Source of the DNA: Bacteroidales bacterium UBA3684
GTDB taxonomy: Bacteria > Bacteroidota > Bacteroidia > Bacteroidales > P3
NCBI GenBank assembly: GCA_002372855.1
Contig: DFIZ01000064.1
Coordinates: 1 to 31,433 of the forward strand
Length of the DNA: 31,433 nt
Reading direction: 5' to 3'
The translations under genes and the position numbers were made by a program. Shown here in pieces: positions 9,542 through 31,338 of this stretch. The first letter of the stretch is position 1. Each line of letters starts with the position of its first letter. Under the pieces are notes generated by a model that searched no databases, was not told the DNA's origin, and worked only from the letters and a program-made list of their open reading frames with translations.

Positions 9542-12340
9542 TTATTTGATAATAATTTCGTCGGTGAAGAGGTAGCTCGGCTGACCCGGGGCGGGGTGCC
9601 ACGAGGGCAGCGGACCGGGGTTGGGGACGACGATGCGGAGGTAGCGGGCAACAGGGTAGCCCAACGTGATCGGAGGCTTCCCGCTGCTGTTGTCCGTCAG
9701 ATCGATATGGTAGTTACGCAGACGCATGCCTGTTTCGCGGGGGTCCATGGGGAACGTCTGGTTCTTGAAAAAGCGCCAGTTTTTGCCGTCGTCGGAGGTG
9801 TAGATTTTGATTTCGGTGGGCGCCAGTATCCAGTCGAAGGTGTTCTGCATGAAGCGCATGTTGACCTCATGGAGCGCCGGCGTCTCGCCGGCAAATTCAA
9901 TCACAACGTCGATGCTGTCGCCCCAGTAGCCCTGCCAGTGGCCGTCGGCGTAGGTGGCGCTGCTGCCCAGCTGGCCGTCGACGAGGGCTTCGGGGCCGCC
10001 GCCGCTGTAGATGGCCTTGTAGGTGCTGTACTGCGTGTTGAGCTTTATCTTGGCGCCCATGCCGAGGTGGCTCAGCAGGTACTGCTCGCTGACGACGCCC
10101 TCACCGTATTCGTTGTAGCTGATGGCCTTGATGGTGGCGGAGCGTTCCAGGGGGAAGGGGCCGGTGTAGCGGGTCGAGGTGGAGTCGGGCTCCGAGCCGT
10201 CGAGGGTGTAGTAGATGGAAGCCTCACCCCCTGCCCCTCTCCCGTTGGAGAGGGGGGTGTAAAGCCTACGGAGCGTCACCATGGGGTATTCACTCCCCTC
10301 TCCCTTCGGAGAGGGGTTGGGGGTGAGGCCTATGAAGACGTGGCGGTCGAGGTCGAGCACCTCGCGGGCGAGCGCGTCGTATCTGTTCATTACCACATAG
10401 CGTTCGTAGTCGCCGTTCTCCTGGTCCCAGAGGCGGAGGTATTCGCGCTTGAGGGCGAAGAGGTCATCTAAATATACCTTGACAAGGGATTTTGGCAGCT
10501 GGGAGATCATCACATTGTTGGTCGTGTCGGTCAGTACGCGGTGTATCGAAGAGCGTAAATAGGCTTTCGTGGAAGTAACCAATATGCGGTCATAAGCATA
10601 TTGCGAATGAGGGTTAGCGGCAGAATCAATCTGAATGTCGCGCAACAGGTTGGCTACTTGCCCAATACGTTTGGCCATAGTTTCGCCGGTGTTGTCGGGG
10701 TTGAAGTTGAGCAGGGGCTCCATCAGCGCGGCGCTGGTGTACCAGTCGCCGACGGCGGGGTTGTACATCAGGGCGCCGACGGCGTAGAGCTGGTCGGTGA
10801 GCGGATGTCCACCCCTCACCCCTTCGGGGAGCTCCCCTGTCTCAGGGGAGCAGTTGGCTGACGCGGACTTGCTATTCTGCTGATCCCTTGTCTCAGGGGA
10901 GCAATTGGCTGACGCGAACTTGCCATTCTGCTGCTCCCCTGTCTCAGGGGAGCAGTTGACTGACGCGGACTTGCTATTCTGCTGCTCCCCTGAAACAGGG
11001 GAGCTGTCGCAAAGCGACTGAGGGGTGGATGCTCCATAAAACAGCCGCTCGAAGTTCTCGTTGAACTGCTCCTCGCGCCGGCGCAGCTCCTCGGGGTCGT
11101 CAGTTTTGAGCGGGTTCCAGGCCATCTCGGCGGCCCAGTACTGGGCGTGCCAGCTGTTGTCGAAGAGGGCCTCGCCGTTGTCGTCCCAGCAGGTGAGCAT
11201 GGCACCCTCGGCACCATCTCGATAGCCGTCGCGGTAGAGGTTGGCGATGTTCTTGATGTAGCGCTGCGGCGTGGAGGTCATGGTGGCGCTGTGGCCCGTC
11301 GAGGCCGCCACCCAGAAGGGGTTGCCCTGGTTCTTGAAGGGGGCTATGAGGTGGCGGAAGCTATCTATGGGTTCGTAAGCCCACATGATGTAGGTCATGT
11401 CTTTGGGCAGCTGGCGCATCATATCGGGGTTCTTGGCCACGATGTCGCCCCACATGGCCAGCCTGATTGCGTTGGTTCCCTCGGACTTCACCATCTCGTA
11501 GCACTTGTTGATGAAATCCACATAGACCTGGTCGGCGCCTTTCTCGTCCACCAGTTTCTTGGCGCGTCCGGTGCCAAGCTGCTCGGTCTCGTCGCAGTTG
11601 ATGATGAAGAAGGGCGAGTTGGGGATGCGGTCGTAGGCGGCCTTGATGCGCTTGCGCAGGAAATCGTAGACCTTGGGGTTGCCGGGGTTGAAGTTGGCGC
11701 GGCTGTCCATCAGGTCCTCGTAGAAGGGGATGCGCAGCGTCTCCTCGGCGTGGGCGAAGAGCTGCAGGTTGATGACCTCGTCGGGGTGCGGCGTGCAGTC
11801 GGCCAGGTAGGCCGGCGCCAGGTCGGGGTACTCCTCCTGGTAGAGGGTGTGCTCCGTGTAGTAGTTGCAGAAGTTGTACTTCAGCGCATGCAGCGTCTGC
11901 CACTGCTTCTGGCGGTAGGCGGCGTGCGGCACGGGTCCACGGCTCTGGTCGTCCATCCAGCCACGATAGCTGTAGGCGGGCCAGTCGAGGATGGTGCAGC
12001 AGGGCAACGTGTCGTGCAACTGACGCAGCTGGGCGAGGGTCAGACGGGCATACTTCAATCCCCTGGTGCCTTCGTAATCGATGGTAATCTTGCGAGGTTC
12101 AATGGTCAAGCGGTAAGCCTGGCTATAGTTGCCGTCGAAATGAGGCGCCTGCGGTCCGCGGCCCCATTTAAAGCGCTGTTCCTTCACCTTGGCCTTGGCC
12201 AGCACACACGATTTGCCCTCCGGCGAGAGGGTCACCTGTTGCGGCGTGGGTATCAGGCCGAGGTTGACTTGTTTTTCCTGTGCCGCCGCCGTCAACCCGA
12301 CGGCCAGCAGCACAATTATCATTATCCTTTTCATAGCCAA
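9542..12340 (-). CDS. Secreted beta-N-acetylhexosaminidase-like glycosidase (GH20 type) with C-terminal F5/8 discoidin domain
   Basis: A 932-residue exported enzyme. A signal peptide (1-20, ending AAAQ) precedes a GH20b-like domain (IPTPQQVTLSP, about 30-100). The TIM-barrel catalytic region (about 115-430) starts with DWPAYSYRGWMDD and carries the likely catalytic Asp-Glu pair at D250-E251 (INCDETEQLG). Then come a chitobiase/HEX C-terminal-like segment (YYTLDGSEP, about 710) and a discoidin domain (about 760-932). GH20 enzymes release terminal N-acetylhexosamines from glycans, here probably in the periplasm or at the surface. The barrel motif is divergent, so substrate is uncertain. Three repeat-coded insertions interrupt it: about residues 437-510, 670-706 and 814-823. 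It follows the CDF gene by 51 nt, a gap filled with short tandem repeats. A start at the third codon (12334) is equally possible. Confidence 0.82.
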   Translation of the reverse strand: MAMKRIMIIVLLAVGLTAAAQEKQVNLGLIPTPQQVTLSPEGKSCVLAKAKVKEQRFKWGRGPQAPHFDGNYSQAYRLTIEPRKITIDYEGTRGLKYARLTLAQLRQLHDTLPCCTILDWPAYSYRGWMDDQSRGPVPHAAYRQKQWQTLHALKYNFCNYYTEHTLYQEEYPDLAPAYLADCTPHPDEVINLQLFAHAEETLRIPFYEDLMDSRANFNPGNPKVYDFLRKRIKAAYDRIPNSPFFIINCDETEQLGTGRAKKLVDEKGADQVYVDFINKCYEMVKSEGTNAIRLAMWGDIVAKNPDMMRQLPKDMTYIMWAYEPIDSFRHLIAPFKNQGNPFWVAASTGHSATMTSTPQRYIKNIANLYRDGYRDGAEGAMLTCWDDNGEALFDNSWHAQYWAAEMAWNPLKTDDPEELRRREEQFNENFERLFYGASTPQSLCDSSPVSGEQQNSKSASVNCSPETGEQQNGKFASANCSPETRDQQNSKSASANCSPETGELPEGVRGGHPLTDQLYAVGALMYNPAVGDWYTSAALMEPLLNFNPDNTGETMAKRIGQVANLLRDIQIDSAANPHSQYAYDRILVTSTKAYLRSSIHRVLTDTTNNVMISQLPKSLVKVYLDDLFALKREYLRLWDQENGDYERYVVMNRYDALAREVLDLDRHVFIGLTPNPSPKGEGSEYPMVTLRRLYTPLSNGRGAGGEASIYYTLDGSEPDSTSTRYTGPFPLERSATIKAISYNEYGEGVVSEQYLLSHLGMGAKIKLNTQYSTYKAIYSGGGPEALVDGQLGSSATYADGHWQGYWGDSIDVVIEFAGETPALHEVNMRFMQNTFDWILAPTEIKIYTSDDGKNWRFFKNQTFPMDPRETGMRLRNYHIDLTDNSSGKPPITLGYPVARYLRIVVPNPGPLPSWHPAPGQPSYLFTDEIIIK
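9870..9899 (-). repeat. In-frame palindrome coding AGETPAL (hexosaminidase copy)
   Basis: Arms GCCGGCG (9876-9882) and CGCCGGC (9886-9892) flank a TCT loop. The 30-bp stretch matches 13714-13743 in pdxJ at 27 of 30 positions. It is read as AGETPALH inside the discoidin domain. Confidence 0.85.
10221..10329 (-). repeat. 109-bp inverted-repeat cassette inside the hexosaminidase gene
   Basis: The outer arms of 22 nt (10221-10242 and 10308-10329) are complementary at about 20 positions. Each half also forms its own hairpin: CCTCTCC-CGTT-GGAGAGG and CCCCTCTCC-CTTC-GGAGAGGGG. The cassette is translated as about 36 residues running from LTPNPSPKGEG to GRGAGGEA, just before the YYTLDGSEP motif. Confidence 0.88.
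10809..11028 (-). repeat. 220-bp repeat cassette with three 51-bp units inside the hexosaminidase gene
   Basis: The cassette is bounded by CCACCCCTCA (10809-10818) and its complement TGAGGGGTGG (11019-11028). Inside are three 51-bp units (10831-10881, 10882-10932, 10933-10983) and a partial fourth from 10984. Each unit holds a hairpin such as CTCCCCTG-TCT-CAGGGGAG. Because 51 is a multiple of three, each unit adds 17 residues (SKSASVNCSPETGEQQN-like) without breaking the frame. Confidence 0.92.
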
Positions 12341-14401: not shown

Positions 14402-15415
14402 ATGCCTCCAACGTCACACATCCAGCATTCAACCAGCCATGCACCACTTAAAAATAATGTTGGGTTGACGCCGATGTATTGGCATATCGGCGAACGCATC
14501 AACCATGAAGTGCTCAGCAACGAGCGTGCCACCTACGGAAAGCAAATTGTCGCGACGGTGTCGCGACAATTGCAGGAAGAGTTTGGAACAAAGGGGCTCG
14601 ATGCGAAAAGTATTCGTCGTATGATGCAATTTGCATCCTTGTTTCCTGAATTCCAAATTGTCGCGACACTGTCGCGACAATTACAATGGTCTCATTTTGT
14701 AGAGGTTATTCCTTTAAAAGACGACCTTCAACGAGAATTCTACCTGACGTTGGCAGCTTCCGAAAGATGGTCAATTCGCCAGCTGCGCAAAGAGATTGAC
14801 GGTATGCTCTACGAGCGTACCGCCATTGCGACGAAACCAGACGAACTGATCAAACAGGAACTGTCGGAACTGCGGGAAAACAACGTCCTCACCCCGGACC
14901 TTGTCTTCAAAAGCCCTTATTTCTTGGAGTTCACAGGGTTGAAAGGGATGTATAGCGAAAAGAGTCTTGAGGACAGTCTTGTGGCGCATCTGGAGCAATT
15001 TATACTGGAGTTGGGCAATGGCTTCACTTTCGTCGAGCGACAGAAGCGGATGATTATCGACGGCGAAGACTTCTATCTCGACCTGCTTTTCTATCATCGC
15101 AGGCTGCATCGGCTGATTGCCATCGATTTGAAACTCGGCAAATTCAAGGCGCAATACAAAGGACAAATGGAACTCTACCTGCGCTGGCTGGAACGCAACG
15201 AAATGGAGCCCGGCGAGGAGCAACCCCTCGGCCTATTGCTTTGCACCGAAGGTGGTGATGAGCAGATAGAACTGCTGCAACTCGACAAATCCGGCATCAA
15301 AGTGGCGCAGTATATGACCGAACTCCCCTCCAAAGAACTCCTGCAACGCCAGCTGCACAAAGGTCTTGAAGCCGCCCGCCAGCGCTGGGAGGCCGACTCT
15401 GCTCTTCTTTCGTAG
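14402..15415 (+). CDS. DUF1016 (YhcG-type) PD-(D/E)XK nuclease family protein, N-terminus atypical
   Basis: The protein (337 residues from 14402; 313 if it starts at the ATG at 14474) belongs to the DUF1016/YhcG family. An N-terminal helical DUF1016 domain (MYWHIGERI, then RMMQFASLFPEFQIVATLSRQL and WSHFVEVIPL) precedes a PD-(D/E)XK nuclease-like domain (about 170-310) with the core DGEDFYLDLLFYHRRL and AIDLKLGKF. Family members occur in defence islands and beside restriction genes; the biochemical role is not firmly known. The first 24 residues look unrelated to the family, and the usual helix before MYW is missing, so the 5' end may be truncated or replaced. Two perfect 12-bp-arm palindromes lie in the gene (14545-14571, 14656-14682). 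It is divergent from pdxJ. No promoter was recognised. Confidence 0.85.
   Translation: MPPTSHIQHSTSHAPLKNNVGLTPMYWHIGERINHEVLSNERATYGKQIVATVSRQLQEEFGTKGLDAKSIRRMMQFASLFPEFQIVATLSRQLQWSHFVEVIPLKDDLQREFYLTLAASERWSIRQLRKEIDGMLYERTAIATKPDELIKQELSELRENNVLTPDLVFKSPYFLEFTGLKGMYSEKSLEDSLVAHLEQFILELGNGFTFVERQKRMIIDGEDFYLDLLFYHRRLHRLIAIDLKLGKFKAQYKGQMELYLRWLERNEMEPGEEQPLGLLLCTEGGDEQIELLQLDKSGIKVAQYMTELPSKELLQRQLHKGLEAARQRWEADSALLS
14545..14571 (+). repeat. Palindrome 1 inside the DUF1016 gene
   Basis: Arms AATTGTCGCGAC (14545-14556) and GTCGCGACAATT (14560-14571) flank a GGT loop. It is translated as part of QIVATVSRQLQ. Confidence 0.92.
14656..14682 (+). repeat. Palindrome 2 inside the DUF1016 gene
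   Basis: The same 12-bp arms (14656-14667 and 14671-14682) flank an ACT loop, exactly 111 bp (37 codons) after palindrome 1. It is translated as part of QIVATLSRQLQ. Confidence 0.92.
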
Positions 15416-24483: not shown

Positions 24484-24513
24484 TGTAGAGACGCGGCATG
24501 CCGCGTCTCTACA
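24484..24513. repeat. Perfect 30-bp palindrome in the intergenic region
   Basis: The arm TGTAGAGACGCGGCA (24484-24498) is followed directly by its exact complement (24499-24513), with no loop. I recall closely similar GTAGAGACGCGGCA palindromes scattered in many bacterial genomes; that is memory, not a search. It sits in the 432-nt gap between rplU and the DUF4249 gene, upstream of the rplU promoter. Confidence 0.92.
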
Positions 24514-25880: not shown

Positions 25881-25917
25881 TTAAACTTAACACTTAACAC
25901 TTAACGCTTAACACTAA
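25881..25917. repeat. Short tandem repeat between the receptor and DUF4249 genes
   Basis: About four units like CTTAACACT fill the gap between the receptor stop (25914) and the DUF4249 start (25867). This is AT-rich DNA inside a GC-rich operon, like the gap at 12352-12390. Confidence 0.75.
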
Positions 25918-28466
25918 AAATAGAGCGTGTACCCCACACTGGGCAGGATGGGGAAGATGCTGAGCTGGACCAGGGCCGAGGGGTAGCCGTTGTAGGTCTC
26001 GGTGCGGGAGCGGTAGAGCATGTAGGGGTTCTGGCGGTTGTAGACGTTGTAGATGCTGACGCTGATGGTGCGGCGGGCGCGACGAAACTTGCGGTGGAAG
26101 TTGGCGCCGAGGTCGAGGCGGTGGTAGTTGGGCATGCGGTAGTTGTTGCGGCCCTCGACGACGCTGATGGTGTTGCGGCCCGGGGTGTCCTCGTCGTAGT
26201 CGTCGGGGTCCTCGAAGGCCGTGGGATAGGTCTGCGTGGCCAGCGAGGCGGCGTTGCCGGTGGAGAAGACCCAGGTGGCGCTGAGGTCGATGGTGGGGCT
26301 GACCTTGTAGGAGAGGACGATGGAGAGGTCGTGGCGACGGTCGTACTTGGCGGGGAAGGGGTCGCCGCCGTTGATGACCTGGCCCTCGCGGTCGAACTGG
26401 CGCATGGAGCGGCTCCAGGTGTAGCCGATCCATCCGGTGAGGTCGCCGAACTCGCGCTGGATGAGGAACTCGAGGCCGTAGCTCCAGCCGCGGCCGCTGT
26501 AGACGAGGTTCTCCCAGTTCTCGCTGGAGCCGAAGAAGGCGGCGCCGTCCTTGTACTCGATGAGATTGTCCATGCGCTTGTAGTAGGCCTCGATGCTGAA
26601 GTCGGCAATGCCGCTGAGGCTGTAGCTGACGCCGGCGGCAATCTGGTCGGAGGTCATGGGCTCGACGCGCTCGGTGACGGGGACCCAGAGGTCGGTGGGC
26701 AGGGTGACGGAGGTGGTGGAGAGGAGGTGGACATACTGCGACATGCGGGCGTAGCCGGCCTTGAAGGAGAGGTCGGGGGTGATGAGCACACGGCCCGAGA
26801 GGCGGGGCTGGATGGAGTGGTAGAACTTGTCCTGCACGAAGAAGCCGCTGAGGTGGAGGCCGTAGTTGAGCTTGACGCTCTCGGTGATGGCCCAGTCGTC
26901 CTCGATGTAGGCCACGAACTCGTTGGCGGGCACGGTGCTGGAGATGATGGAGGAGTCGATCTGCAGGGCACGGTTCATCTGGATGGAGTCGAAGTAGTTG
27001 ACGCTGGCGTTGGCCACCTCGGGGGTGAACCAGTGGCGTGTGGCCGAGGCGCCGAACTTGACGGTGTGCTCGGGCGTGGGGGTGAAGTCGAAATCGGAGC
27101 GCAGGGTGAACTCGCGGATGCCGGAGTTGTAGTCGCCGGTGATGGTGGAGGCATTGGTGGCGTTGGGGGTGGCCAGCTTCTCGACGGAGCCGACGATGTT
27201 GTTCTTGTACTGCGTGTAGGCGGCGGAGAGGTTCATGAAGATTTTGGGCGAGAGCTCGTAGTTCCAGCGCAGGGCGCCGACGAGGTTGCCCCAGAGGGTG
27301 GAGAAACCGAGGTTGATGTCCTCGTCGAGGGCGGTGACGGTGTGCACCTTGCCGTGGATTTTGTCGTCGCCCATGTAGAATGAGGCGTAGAGACGGCTCT
27401 TGTCGCTGAACTTGTGGGTGAACTTGGCGTTGATGTCGTAGAAATAGTATCCGGCGTCAAACTTGGCGTTTTCTGCCAGGGCGCCGCCAGGTTCGTCCTC
27501 GGTTTCGGAGGTGGCATCGTTGAGCCACATGATGGCGGGGATGACGAAGAGTTCGGCATAGGTGCGGCGGGCCGAGAGGGAGAAGGTGGTCTTCTCCTTG
27601 ACGATGGGCCCTTCGAGGTTGAACTTGGCGGAGATGAGGCCCACCGAGAGGTTGCCGTGGATTTCCTTGTCGTTGCCGTTGTTCTGTGTGACGTCGAGCA
27701 CAGCGCTCAGACGGCCGCCGAAACGGGCGGGGAAGGAGCCTTTGTAGAGGGTGACGTTCTTGACGGCGTCGGTGTTGAAGGTGGAGAAGAAGCCGCCCAT
27801 GTGGGTGACGTTGTAGAGGGGCACGCCGTCGAGGAGGAAGAGGTTCTCGTCGGGGCCGCCGCCGCGGACGTACATGCCGCTGTTGCCCTCGCTGCCGGTC
27901 TGCACTCCGGGCATGAGCTGCAGGGCCTTGATGAGGTCGGCCTCGCCGAACATGACGGGCACGGACTTGATTTTCTCCACGGTCATCACGTTGGCACTCA
28001 TCTGGGCGGAACGGACGTCGCCGGTGCGCTCGGCGGTGATGACGACTTCGTTGAGGGTAACGCTGGAGGAGAGCTTGACGTTGAGCTCGCGGTTGGCGTC
28101 GAGCTTGAGGTTGAAGAATCGGGGTTCGTAGCCCACGAAGGAGACCTTGAGGTTGACGGAGTCGCGGCGCACGGTGAGGGAGTAGTGGCCGTAGACGTTG
28201 GTCACGGCTCCCTTGCCGCTGCGGGTGTCGAGCACAGTGGCGCCGATGAGGGTCTCGCCGGTGGCGGCGTCGGTGATGGTGCCGCTGATGGTGGCGTTCT
28301 GGGCCAGGGCTGCGAGAGGGAAGAGCAGCAGTAGCAGTATGCAACTGCGTGCCCAGCCCCGCAGGGGCGCAGGCCTACAGGCAGGGGTTTCAACCCCTGC
28401 ACACCATACACGATTCTGCCGGAACCCCGAAGGGGTGGCAGGTTTTTTATTTTTGTAAAAATGCAT
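25914..28466 (-). CDS. TonB-dependent outer-membrane receptor with carboxypeptidase-like regulatory domain
   Basis: An 850-residue receptor that would import a bound substrate across the outer membrane with energy from TonB/ExbBD. After the signal peptide core (CILLLLLFPLAALAQ, about 42-56) comes a carboxypeptidase-regulatory-like domain (ISGTITDAATGETLIGA, about 58-135). The plug domain follows (about 155-265; VMFGEADLIKALQLMPGVQ, MYVRGGGPDENLFLLDGVPLY, FPARFGGRLSAVLDV), then a beta-barrel ending in GYTLYF. It is not SusC-like; the partner is a DUF4249 lipoprotein just downstream. The first 41 residues are odd: coded by palindromic repeats (28357-28437), Pro/Arg-rich, with three Cys, and overlapping the end of the transposase gene by 20 nt. 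No nearer in-frame ATG exists, so either the repeat supplied a new start or a non-ATG start is used. Confidence 0.92.
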   Translation of the reverse strand: MHFYKNKKPATPSGFRQNRVWCAGVETPACRPAPLRGWARSCILLLLLFPLAALAQNATISGTITDAATGETLIGATVLDTRSGKGAVTNVYGHYSLTVRRDSVNLKVSFVGYEPRFFNLKLDANRELNVKLSSSVTLNEVVITAERTGDVRSAQMSANVMTVEKIKSVPVMFGEADLIKALQLMPGVQTGSEGNSGMYVRGGGPDENLFLLDGVPLYNVTHMGGFFSTFNTDAVKNVTLYKGSFPARFGGRLSAVLDVTQNNGNDKEIHGNLSVGLISAKFNLEGPIVKEKTTFSLSARRTYAELFVIPAIMWLNDATSETEDEPGGALAENAKFDAGYYFYDINAKFTHKFSDKSRLYASFYMGDDKIHGKVHTVTALDEDINLGFSTLWGNLVGALRWNYELSPKIFMNLSAAYTQYKNNIVGSVEKLATPNATNASTITGDYNSGIREFTLRSDFDFTPTPEHTVKFGASATRHWFTPEVANASVNYFDSIQMNRALQIDSSIISSTVPANEFVAYIEDDWAITESVKLNYGLHLSGFFVQDKFYHSIQPRLSGRVLITPDLSFKAGYARMSQYVHLLSTTSVTLPTDLWVPVTERVEPMTSDQIAAGVSYSLSGIADFSIEAYYKRMDNLIEYKDGAAFFGSSENWENLVYSGRGWSYGLEFLIQREFGDLTGWIGYTWSRSMRQFDREGQVINGGDPFPAKYDRRHDLSIVLSYKVSPTIDLSATWVFSTGNAASLATQTYPTAFEDPDDYDEDTPGRNTISVVEGRNNYRMPNYHRLDLGANFHRKFRRARRTISVSIYNVYNRQNPYMLYRSRTETYNGYPSALVQLSIFPILPSVGYTLYF
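28357..28437 (-). repeat. Palindrome cluster at the receptor 5' end, downstream of the RAYT gene
   Basis: Three hairpins lie in a row: GCCCC-GCA-GGGGC (28357-28369), GCAGGGGTT-TC-AACCCCTGC (28382-28401) and ACCCC-GAA-GGGGT (28425-28437). The block starts 10 nt after the RAYT stop on the minus strand. It shares GGCCTACA-x-GCAGGGGT with the cluster on the other side of the RAYT gene. Confidence 0.88.
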
Positions 28467-28905
28467 ATCCTTCTGTATTATCTATATTATACGCTTTTGC
28501 GAACAAATCCACTTCTTCACGAAAGGTTCTTTGTCTATGGTGTTCTTCCTGATTGGCAATATATCTCTTTGTCTTGTCCAACAAAGAAGGACTGACGGAG
28601 AAGGCCCCATAGCCTTCCTGCCAGGCGAATTTGGTGTATCGAGGAGAGATGCCTTTAATCCACTTGCTGCTTTTGGCCTTGACTGTTCGGGCGAAATCGG
28701 CCACAGTGACGGTCGGGGGAACAGAAACCAGGGCATGCACATGGTCGGATACACCGCCAACAATAAACGAGATGCCGCCAAGCGAACGAACGATGCCACC
28801 TATGTAATCGAACAAGCGTGGCAGGTCGTCACGGCTAACAGTGACTCCATCATATTTGACATGGAATACCAGGTGGATATCGTTCTTTACAAGTGAGTTG
28901 GGCAT
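28447..28905 (-). CDS. REP-associated tyrosine transposase (RAYT, IS200/Y1 type)
   Basis: A 152-residue single-strand DNA transposase of the Y1/HUH class. The HUH metal site is H55-V-H57 in GVSDHVHALVSVP, and the likely nucleophile is Y115 in RYIANQEEHHRQ. WQEGYGAFSVS and HLVFHVKY are further family landmarks, and the length is complete. RAYTs are thought to cut and move short REP palindromes rather than themselves. This fits the setting: palindrome clusters lie on both sides (28357-28437 and 28923-29030), and many more palindromes lie in the window. It is the last gene after glnA and folK, 7 nt after the folK stop. The start at 28905 (MPNSLVKND) fits the family; an earlier ATG at 28971 would add repeat-coded residues overlapping folK. 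Confidence 0.9.
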   Translation of the reverse strand: MPNSLVKNDIHLVFHVKYDGVTVSRDDLPRLFDYIGGIVRSLGGISFIVGGVSDHVHALVSVPPTVTVADFARTVKAKSSKWIKGISPRYTKFAWQEGYGAFSVSPSLLDKTKRYIANQEEHHRQRTFREEVDLFAKAYNIDNTEGYAFLQK

Positions 28906-28912
28906 GGCAGAG

Positions 28913-29530
28913 TCATTCGTTAGGGGGTCCTTCCACCCCCTGCGGGGGTTCCATGGACACTTCCGTATCATCTACAGGGGTTTCGCTTTGCTCCACCCCT
29001 GCTTGTAGGCCCAGCACCCCCTGCGGGGGTTCCTTCAAAAGGGCTCGCACCGTTTTTTTCAATACGGGGTGGACGTAGTCCGGCATGATTTCGGCCAGAG
29101 GTTCGAGGACGAAGCGACGAAGGTGCATGCGGGGATGGGGGATGACGAGGTCGGGGGTGTCAATAACGTCGTGGTCGAAGAAGATGAGGTCGATGTCGAT
29201 GGGACGGGAATGGTAGGTGCGTGCCCCTTGGGTCGCGCCAGACGACGAAGCCTGCGGGCGCTGGCGGCCGAGGTCTTTTTCTATGTCGAGGGCTTCGCGG
29301 AGGGCTTCGTGGGCGGACAGGGGGGTGGAGACCAGGAGGGCCTGGTTGAGGAAGTTCTCCACCTTCCGCTCCCCGTTCTCCTCTTCGAAGGTGCCCCAGG
29401 GTTCAGTCTCGTAGATGCGGGAAAAGGAAACGACAGAGCCGATACGTTGCCGTATCTGCTCTGTCGCTTGCTGTATCAACAGATGGCGGTCGCCTTGGTT
29501 GCCGCCGATGAGTAGGGCCAGACGATGCAT
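28913..29530 (-). CDS. folK: 2-amino-4-hydroxy-6-hydroxymethyldihydropteridine diphosphokinase with repeat-coded C-terminal tail
   Basis: FolK (HPPK) transfers pyrophosphate from ATP to 6-hydroxymethyl-7,8-dihydropterin in folate synthesis. Visible signatures: LIGGNQGDR at the start, IYETEPWG, FLNQALLVST, and the metal/ATP segment RPIDIDLIFFD, then HPRMHLRRFVLEPLAEI. The normal end of the family is near HPVLKKTVRALL (about residue 164). About 40 more residues (EPPQGVLGLQAGVEQ..., EPPQGVEGPPNE) are coded entirely by palindromic repeats (28923-29030), so the tail is probably disordered and dispensable. A further unusual stretch, PQASSSGATQGA (about 93-104), interrupts the loop before the active site and may be another insertion. 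Its ATG shares one base with the glnA stop, suggesting coupled translation. Confidence 0.94.
   Translation of the reverse strand: MHRLALLIGGNQGDRHLLIQQATEQIRQRIGSVVSFSRIYETEPWGTFEEENGERKVENFLNQALLVSTPLSAHEALREALDIEKDLGRQRPQASSSGATQGARTYHSRPIDIDLIFFDHDVIDTPDLVIPHPRMHLRRFVLEPLAEIMPDYVHPVLKKTVRALLKEPPQGVLGLQAGVEQSETPVDDTEVSMEPPQGVEGPPNE
28923..29030 (-). repeat. Palindrome cluster at the folK 3' end, upstream of the RAYT gene
   Basis: Two identical 15-bp hairpins ACCCCC-TGC-GGGGGT (28935-28949 and 29016-29030) flank a block with CAGGGGTTTCG and CCACCCCTG. GGGGGT (28923-28928) can also pair with ACCCCC (28935-28940), giving alternative folds. The cluster codes the last ~40 residues of FolK. Confidence 0.88.
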
Positions 29531-31136: not shown

Positions 31137-31338
31137 GCCACGTAGTGGCGACAGTCGCTAGCCGTGGGCGTAAGCCCACGGGCAGAAGCAGGAACGGCAA
31201 CCGAGCCCTGCAAGGGCGGCACCAAAACAAACGACAGAAAACCCCACCCGTGCCGCCCCTACGGGGCTGGAAACAATGCTTTTCACCTGTCATCCGTGGG
31301 CTTACGCCCACGGCTAGCAACTGTCGTCACTCCGTGGC
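31137..31338. repeat. Inverted-repeat cassette upstream of glnA
   Basis: Two 45-bp arms (31137-31181 and 31294-31338) are reverse complements with three mismatches. Each arm contains its own hairpin CCGTGGGC-GTAA-GCCCACGG. The 112 nt between hold a weaker inverted pair (GCCCTGCAAGGGCGGCA against TGCCGCCCCTACGGGGCT). No gene is seen in it. The rest of 31036-31433 holds the glnA upstream sequence and a T/C-rich tail before the window-end repeat. Confidence 0.88.

Follow-up and report, generated by a model that had tools for sequence, protein, structure and literature searches.

The window analysed here, a 31,433-nt stretch of the genome of Bacteroidales bacterium UBA3684 (contig DFIZ01000064.1), holds a gene for a Y1 HUH transposase (28447..28905, minus strand) that sits at the centre of a mirror-symmetric element of six hairpins (28356..29030, minus strand; order B2-A-B1-gene-B1-A-B2). 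The enzyme has the motifs of TnpA_Y1 subclass 1.2, and it is tentatively proposed that enzymes of this subclass may drive widespread, so far unrecognised mobile elements of single-stranded DNA (ssDNA), in which a six-hairpin unit built from the module A - C|T - B occurs with the gene, without it and in tandem, in groups ranging from Bacteroidales to Planctomycetota, and hairpins co-evolve with their enzymes. The analysis shows the layout of the element, the presence of the module on one or both sides of many enzyme genes in several phyla, the agreement between the two flanks of a gene, the change of hairpins with enzyme sequence, and the existence of gene-less elements with the same hairpin order.

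Read outward from the gene, either side presents hairpin B1 with a 3-nt loop, a spacer, hairpin A, a linker beginning CT, and hairpin B2. On the side of a TonB-dependent receptor gene, B1 (ACCCCgaaGGGGT, 28424..28436) adjoins the stop codon of the enzyme gene and is followed by A (GCAGGGGTTtcAACCCCTGC, 28381..28400), the linker CTGTAGGCCTGC (28369..28380, minus-strand reading), whose initial CT is the predicted cut dinucleotide, and B2 (GCCCCgcaGGGGC, 28356..28368). On the folK side, B1' (ACCCCCtgcGGGGGT, 28935..28949, overlapping an alternative hairpin at 28919-28938) adjoins the enzyme start and is followed by A' (CAGGGGT...ACCCCTG with a 13-nt loop, 28975..29001), the linker CTTGTAGGCCCAGC (29002..29015, plus strand) and B2' (29016..29030). 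The two palindrome clusters with a common core that a first-pass annotation had placed around the gene are thus borne out: the inverted core arms (28372-28388 and 28995-29011) are 17 nt long and 94% complementary, and the two sides, folded as ssDNA, gave z of -2.9 and -1.7 against their own shuffles.

The protein is 152 residues long from its start at MPNS (the open reading frame, ORF, is readable from 28971) and matches the Y1_Tnp domain with 68.8 bits; it has the IS200/IS605 TnpA fold, its nearest solved folds being those of such proteins. The HVH motif (H55-V-H57) and Y115, already described as intact, were confirmed; all 22 aligned sequences (window enzyme included) agree in H55, H57, Y115, Q119, H122 and H123. 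Subclass 1.2, in the account given of it by the survey of Quentin (2018, PMC6006769), comprises proteins of about 150 residues with the motifs DH[IV]H, WQ and Y---Q--HH and few diverged copies per genome. The window enzyme is alike in length, motifs (DHVH, WQ and YIANQEEHH) and copy number; some relatives have NHVH or NHIH, and Y---Q--HH is present at 78/80 loci of the named set introduced below. Its source genome (G000, an assembly of 1.89 Mb in 88 contigs, estimated to be 79% complete) holds two enzymes of this type, only 38% identical to each other, and not the near-identical multiple copies of IS200/IS605 type. Judged by motifs, the enzyme carries the signature of subclass 1.2 and not that of RAYTs; the RAYT label first given to it fails in the strict sense, YxxxQxxHH being found in place of YxxxNP.

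A search with the window enzyme found relatives in 54 of the family's 149 genomes, 115 in all, of which 104 were used (the 11 omitted were fragments, contig-end cases and a few others). The named set added 80 loci from Bacteroidota, Akkermansia and other Verrucomicrobiota, Phycisphaerae, Calditrichaceae, Methylobacter and others; six of these duplicated family-genome loci and were removed before the counts over 178 loci. Under strict detection, in which a module is hairpin A, a 9-15 nt linker and hairpin B, a module stood on at least one side of the gene at 73/178 enzyme loci, as against 3/317 control ORFs and 0/178 resampled flanks, and on both sides at 35/178; the module-flanked loci belong to Bacteroidota, Planctomycetota and other phyla. 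At least two hairpins within 200 bp on both sides were found at 25 of 42 enzyme loci and 6 of 343 control ORFs from the same stretches. Kinship between loci inflates such counts, against which 70% clustering and a within-genome permutation served as guards; with one locus per 70% cluster, the module was found at 44/89. The linker begins CT or CCT in 84/122 modules (13.6 expected from shuffles), and the CT, directly behind A, mostly stands 11-13 nt before B (95/130 pairs). This CT rule, rather than the numbers of inward (74) and outward (130) A-B pairs, was used for orientation, since short-loop hairpins appear in both readings. In the survey's account, subclass 1.2 has REP 'no', is generally without IS200 end structures and is found mostly in Cyanobacteria and Bacteroidetes (PMC6006769), whereas here the two-hairpin module flanks many members, and relatives occur also in Verrucomicrobiota, Planctomycetota, Calditrichota and Methylobacter (by record title, mostly metagenome-assembled genomes).

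The hairpins differ from enzyme to enzyme and agree across a gene. In the 25 genomes with at least two enzymes, the two flanks (5' and 3') of one gene had a mean score of 29.9, compared with 12.4 for flanks of different genes in the same genome; a gene's own flank was the best match in 61/76 cases, and 0/2000 permutations reached the observed sum. Flank similarity rises with enzyme identity (Spearman 0.42 over 4726 non-syntenic cross-genome pairs, which are not independent; internal stop signs were deleted from a few homologues before identity was calculated). At 103 loci (the 104 less one whose flank was short or masked) the outward flank reading beat the direct reading 68 times and lost 34 times. 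Agreeing flanks were found at 65/78 scorable loci of the named set, at a score threshold of 16 (shuffled flanks of the first set peaked at 15). Enzymes and hairpins that co-evolve would give such a pattern, as is known for RAYTs and REPs, and the earlier proposal of a REP-like tie between the enzyme and the palindromes at its sides is upheld by the hairpin enrichment at enzyme loci and by the 5'/3' agreement. Flank agreement was very strong at one Haloferula locus (L237, score 88) and one Akkermansia locus (L201, 112). At seven other loci (L071, L074, L076, L084, L087, L088 and L091) enzymes with differing hairpin A types lie in stretches that share long homology across genomes, as if such elements preferred this neighbourhood or had long been kept there.

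Copies of this hairpin order that lack the gene are dispersed, and one of them is found in the window itself, at about 31137..31338 (inner hairpins A' 31162-31181, B1' 31205-31217, B1 31255-31267 and A 31294-31313; outer right hairpin degenerate, 3 bp), and as a single strand it folds far better than its shuffles (z -11); its place is unoccupied in genomes G139 and G065, which are too diverged there for a junction to be read. Its hairpin A, CCGTGGGC, differs from that of the window enzyme and is the one carried by the dispersed elements of the source genome (11 exact copies); the CCCCTNCGGGG core has 35 copies, falling in several families, compared with 1 in the backward control. The spacing of hairpin A was analysed for 122 of 267 CCGTGGGC copies (G014, G096 and most of G116 lay outside the sample, as did double listings of self-complementary hairpins and most single-match G116 contigs) and, in the named genomes, for 49 of 51 matches. 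Among the 122 copies, outward-facing neighbours were 116-139 bp apart in 20/24 pairs, same-direction neighbours stood at 66-80 bp in 14/19 and form tandem arrays, and inward-facing pairs numbered 4; in the named genomes outward pairs were spaced at 122-128 bp (3) or 567-625 bp (5). The two sets together have eight outward pairs spaced at 533-625 bp, and seven of these enclose an enzyme; where the content was unknown before the search, in G151, two of three pairs held an enzyme and that on contig C163 did not. Twenty short-spaced elements, chosen with 138-156 nt from A' to A, have B hairpins inside and just outside each by visual inspection, giving the six-hairpin order, in Bacteroidales and in the Phycisphaerae genome G151 alike. 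Three of 19 listed length differences between homologous stretches concern entire units of an array (91, 73 and 32 bp, each involving L097 of G038); that of 32 bp begins and ends behind ...GGCT, consistent with the predicted C|T, with a repeat that leaves the border ambiguous.

The Y1 HUH enzyme probably recognises its own A-linker-B modules as folded single strands and would cut at the CT behind A. TnpA_REP is described as binding a folded hairpin and cutting at an adjacent C|T (PMC8266576), and IS200/IS605 enzymes as picking the cut site by a guide just 5' of the hairpin (PMC8266576, PMC6006769). By analogy with TnpA_REP and from its position, the cut site here would be C|T; with CT directly behind A and before B, a single cut could make A the hairpin of a right end or B that of a left end. 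The single-stranded modules would be copied or moved into new sites and gene-less elements would be mobilised in trans; tandem units and length differences of unit size would fit cuts at each A/B junction. With many related genes bracketed likewise by hairpins of their own, some of them in other phyla, the hairpins are likely to be the DNA segments which enzymes of this little-understood group would cut and spread.

Several observations weigh against this proposal. At the window locus, hairpin A (CAGGGGT/ACCCCTG) occurs at exactly two sites in the source assembly, both adjoining the enzyme gene, so that no RAYT-type dispersal of the cognate palindrome was found in this 79%-complete assembly; GTAGGCC followed by a B hairpin likewise has just two occurrences. 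The hairpin of the second enzyme of that genome (on contig C81) is limited to two sites beside its own gene, and the CCGTGGGC copies flank neither of the two enzymes. The first-pass annotation had suggested that the locus may be a REP-like source of the window's many palindromes and had named confinement of the flanking hairpins to this place as one outcome that would overturn it; they are so confined, and the enzyme was rejected as the source of the other palindromes. More generally, strict detection finds no module at 105/178 loci, some enzymes having single-hairpin arrays or none visible, and 5'/3' agreement is weak at 25/103 loci, including that of the second enzyme of the source genome. 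The comparison with G139 and G065 and that of length differences between homologous stretches yielded no clean empty site. Nine of the 149 family genomes carry such hairpins with no enzyme of this type detected, eight of them having no Y1_Tnp match at all; G096 and G131 (13 and 6 CCGTGGGC copies) are without such a match, as is G111, which has 20 copies of CCCAGGGC...GCCCTGGGCT, most with the loop GGT. The CCGTGGGC pattern is accompanied by an enzyme in 15/20 genomes (within-genus link borderline, p 0.05) and the CCCAGGGC pattern in 9/12 (not significant, p 0.15). The enzyme-less genomes may have lost the enzyme, it may be hidden by gaps where assemblies break at repeats, or another mobiliser may be at work. 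The link is firmer for the CAGGGG pattern, where 21/22 pattern-bearing genomes among the 149 have the enzyme (within genus 18/19, p 7e-5). At least 28/76 CAGGGG matches lie within 600 bp of an enzyme, as do at least 12/28 for CCCAGGGC (plus 0/20 in G111), lower bounds that use the positions of 46 of the 115 enzyme matches.

The alternative that survives best, though rather unlikely, is that the gene-bearing unit is an ordinary IS200/IS605-like insertion sequence (IS) that moves as a whole, and that gene-less elements are its deletion derivatives, or miniature inverted-repeat transposable elements (MITEs). The hairpin order common to gene-bearing and gene-less elements and the nearest solved folds would suit it, and so would G151, which has the query enzyme and three others 69-73% identical to it (on contigs C90, C130 and C167), whose genes have copies of the same hairpin A next to them; these lie on both sides in C90 and C130, whereas in C167 the pattern shows one side. 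On C130 of that genome a 31-residue enzyme fragment (11739-11831) adjoins another copy of hairpin A (at 11879), possibly a step in the decay of a gene-bearing to a gene-less element. Against it, enzymes in the same genome are mostly very different (66/98 pairs below 45% identity) and have different hairpins; the published survey, where it treats subclass 1.2, gives low copy number and no IS properties (PMC6006769); and the window element is single-copy and occupies the same site in five genomes of different species (G000, G139, G065, G117 and G105), between folK and the TonB-receptor gene, a relative of the enzyme in G145 lying instead between folK and a glutamine synthetase gene. Since the folK site is shared by five genomes and hairpin A has not spread in the source genome, the site is old and the element looks resident there; this stable site, together with the strong divergence between copies, favours a REPtron-like mode, in which the gene stays while modules spread, over one in which the gene moves with the element as in an IS with MITEs.

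It is improbable that the hairpins, instead of being substrates, work at the RNA level by terminating or attenuating transcription of the enzyme gene and its neighbours. Many loci do have B hairpins no more than tens of bases from start and stop codons, but the same modules make up gene-less palindromes and tandem arrays with a 66-80 bp period, and a terminator gives no reason for hairpin type to be paired with enzyme type.

Still less probable is that the palindromes persist for the sake of useful tails which they encode on FolK and the TonB receptor. The open frame of folK (28913..29530, minus strand) passes through B2', A' and B1', and that of the receptor (25914..28466, minus strand) through B1, A and B2, as had been noted at first, when the palindromes were taken to supply the translated FolK tail and the first 41 residues of the receptor. 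At all five orthologous loci the folK frame reaches into the hairpins. Between the end of the enzyme gene and the receptor, the receptor frame stays open in the window and in G139, G065 and G105 (in G117 the script did not find the motif), and in G139 a repeat of 14 codons leaves it intact. The folK stop, however, shifts from -162 to +53 relative to the enzyme ATG among the five orthologues, GC-rich hairpins would rarely contain stops, and modules at other loci often border, by visual inspection, non-coding sequence or other genes. The only ATG, GTG or TTG start of the receptor frame in the window is ATG 28466, inside the enzyme gene at its 3' end; in three orthologues a TTG stands just behind hairpin B2. 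The 41 residues may for this reason be an untranslated leader. What stands of the earlier claim is the overlap of both frames with the hairpins, a fact of the DNA sequence; a role for the encoded peptides is unproven.

That the enzyme is a canonical class 2 RAYT (TnpA_REP) accompanied by GTAG REPs, as the GTAG in both window linkers and the inverted palindromes around the gene might suggest, is hardly credible and was rejected on the catalytic motif (YIANQEEHH, where class 2 has Y---NP), with hairpin A at two sites only and GTAG 6-7 nt away from hairpin B2, not at the hairpin foot (0-2 nt) where the GT[AG]G of RAYT systems stands. GTAG was also abandoned as a defining mark, orthologues having GTAT, GTAA or GTGT at that place and not keeping GTAG on both sides.

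The proposed system resembles RAYTs with their REPs, BIMEs and REPINs (the REPtron) in that inverted hairpins stand at the gene, each enzyme has one hairpin family, gene-less inverted doublets lie elsewhere and CT stands beside a hairpin; it differs in the class 1 type of catalytic motif, the lack of a fixed GTAG foot, and the two different hairpins per module and six per element. With IS200/IS605 elements (IS608, ISDra2) it shares the fold, the HUH and Y positions and hairpins near the ends, whereas the window element is mirror-symmetric (IS ends are distinct, left and right), of low copy number and without a second gene inside. Genes for tyrosine transposases that likewise stand between inverted repeats, in part double palindromes and in some families dispersed, have been described as TIRYTs, in units called TIRtrons (Di Nocera et al., 2013, PMC3733652); Quentin et al. 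regard TIRYTs as probably subclass 2.1 (PMC6006769). Among the matches listed in open full-text papers (subscription papers and preprints lay outside), only PMC6006769 was found to treat subclass 1.2, and its account of the subclass reports no associated hairpins. For a subclass published as close kin of IS200 transposases, but lacking IS properties and known DNA partners, the module supplies a specific candidate for the substrate and a predicted position of the cut. If the proposal is true, dispersed palindrome families of gut and environmental bacteria (CCGTGGGC..., CCCAGGGC...) would be explained, and an independent case would be gained for the co-evolution of enzyme and palindrome, an open question for RAYTs.

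Other palindromes were observed in the window. A perfect 30-nt palindrome (TGTAG...CTACA, 24484-24513) has GTAG/CTAC ends and resembles the 'double foot' REPs of subclass 2.4; similar stretches, GAGACGCGGCATGCCGCG, lie near other elements of the source genome (L011, L014). Two near-identical 27-nt palindromes, AATTGTCGCGAC...GTCGCGACAATT (14545-14571 and 14656-14682), fall in the coding frame of a DUF1016/YhcG-type nuclease. Within a large ORF (9542-12340), hairpins of the types CCCCTCTCC..GGAGAGGGG (two) and GCTCCCCTG..CAGGGGAGC (three) occur at 10234-10316 and 10831-11004 and belong to families other than the one that flanks the enzyme.

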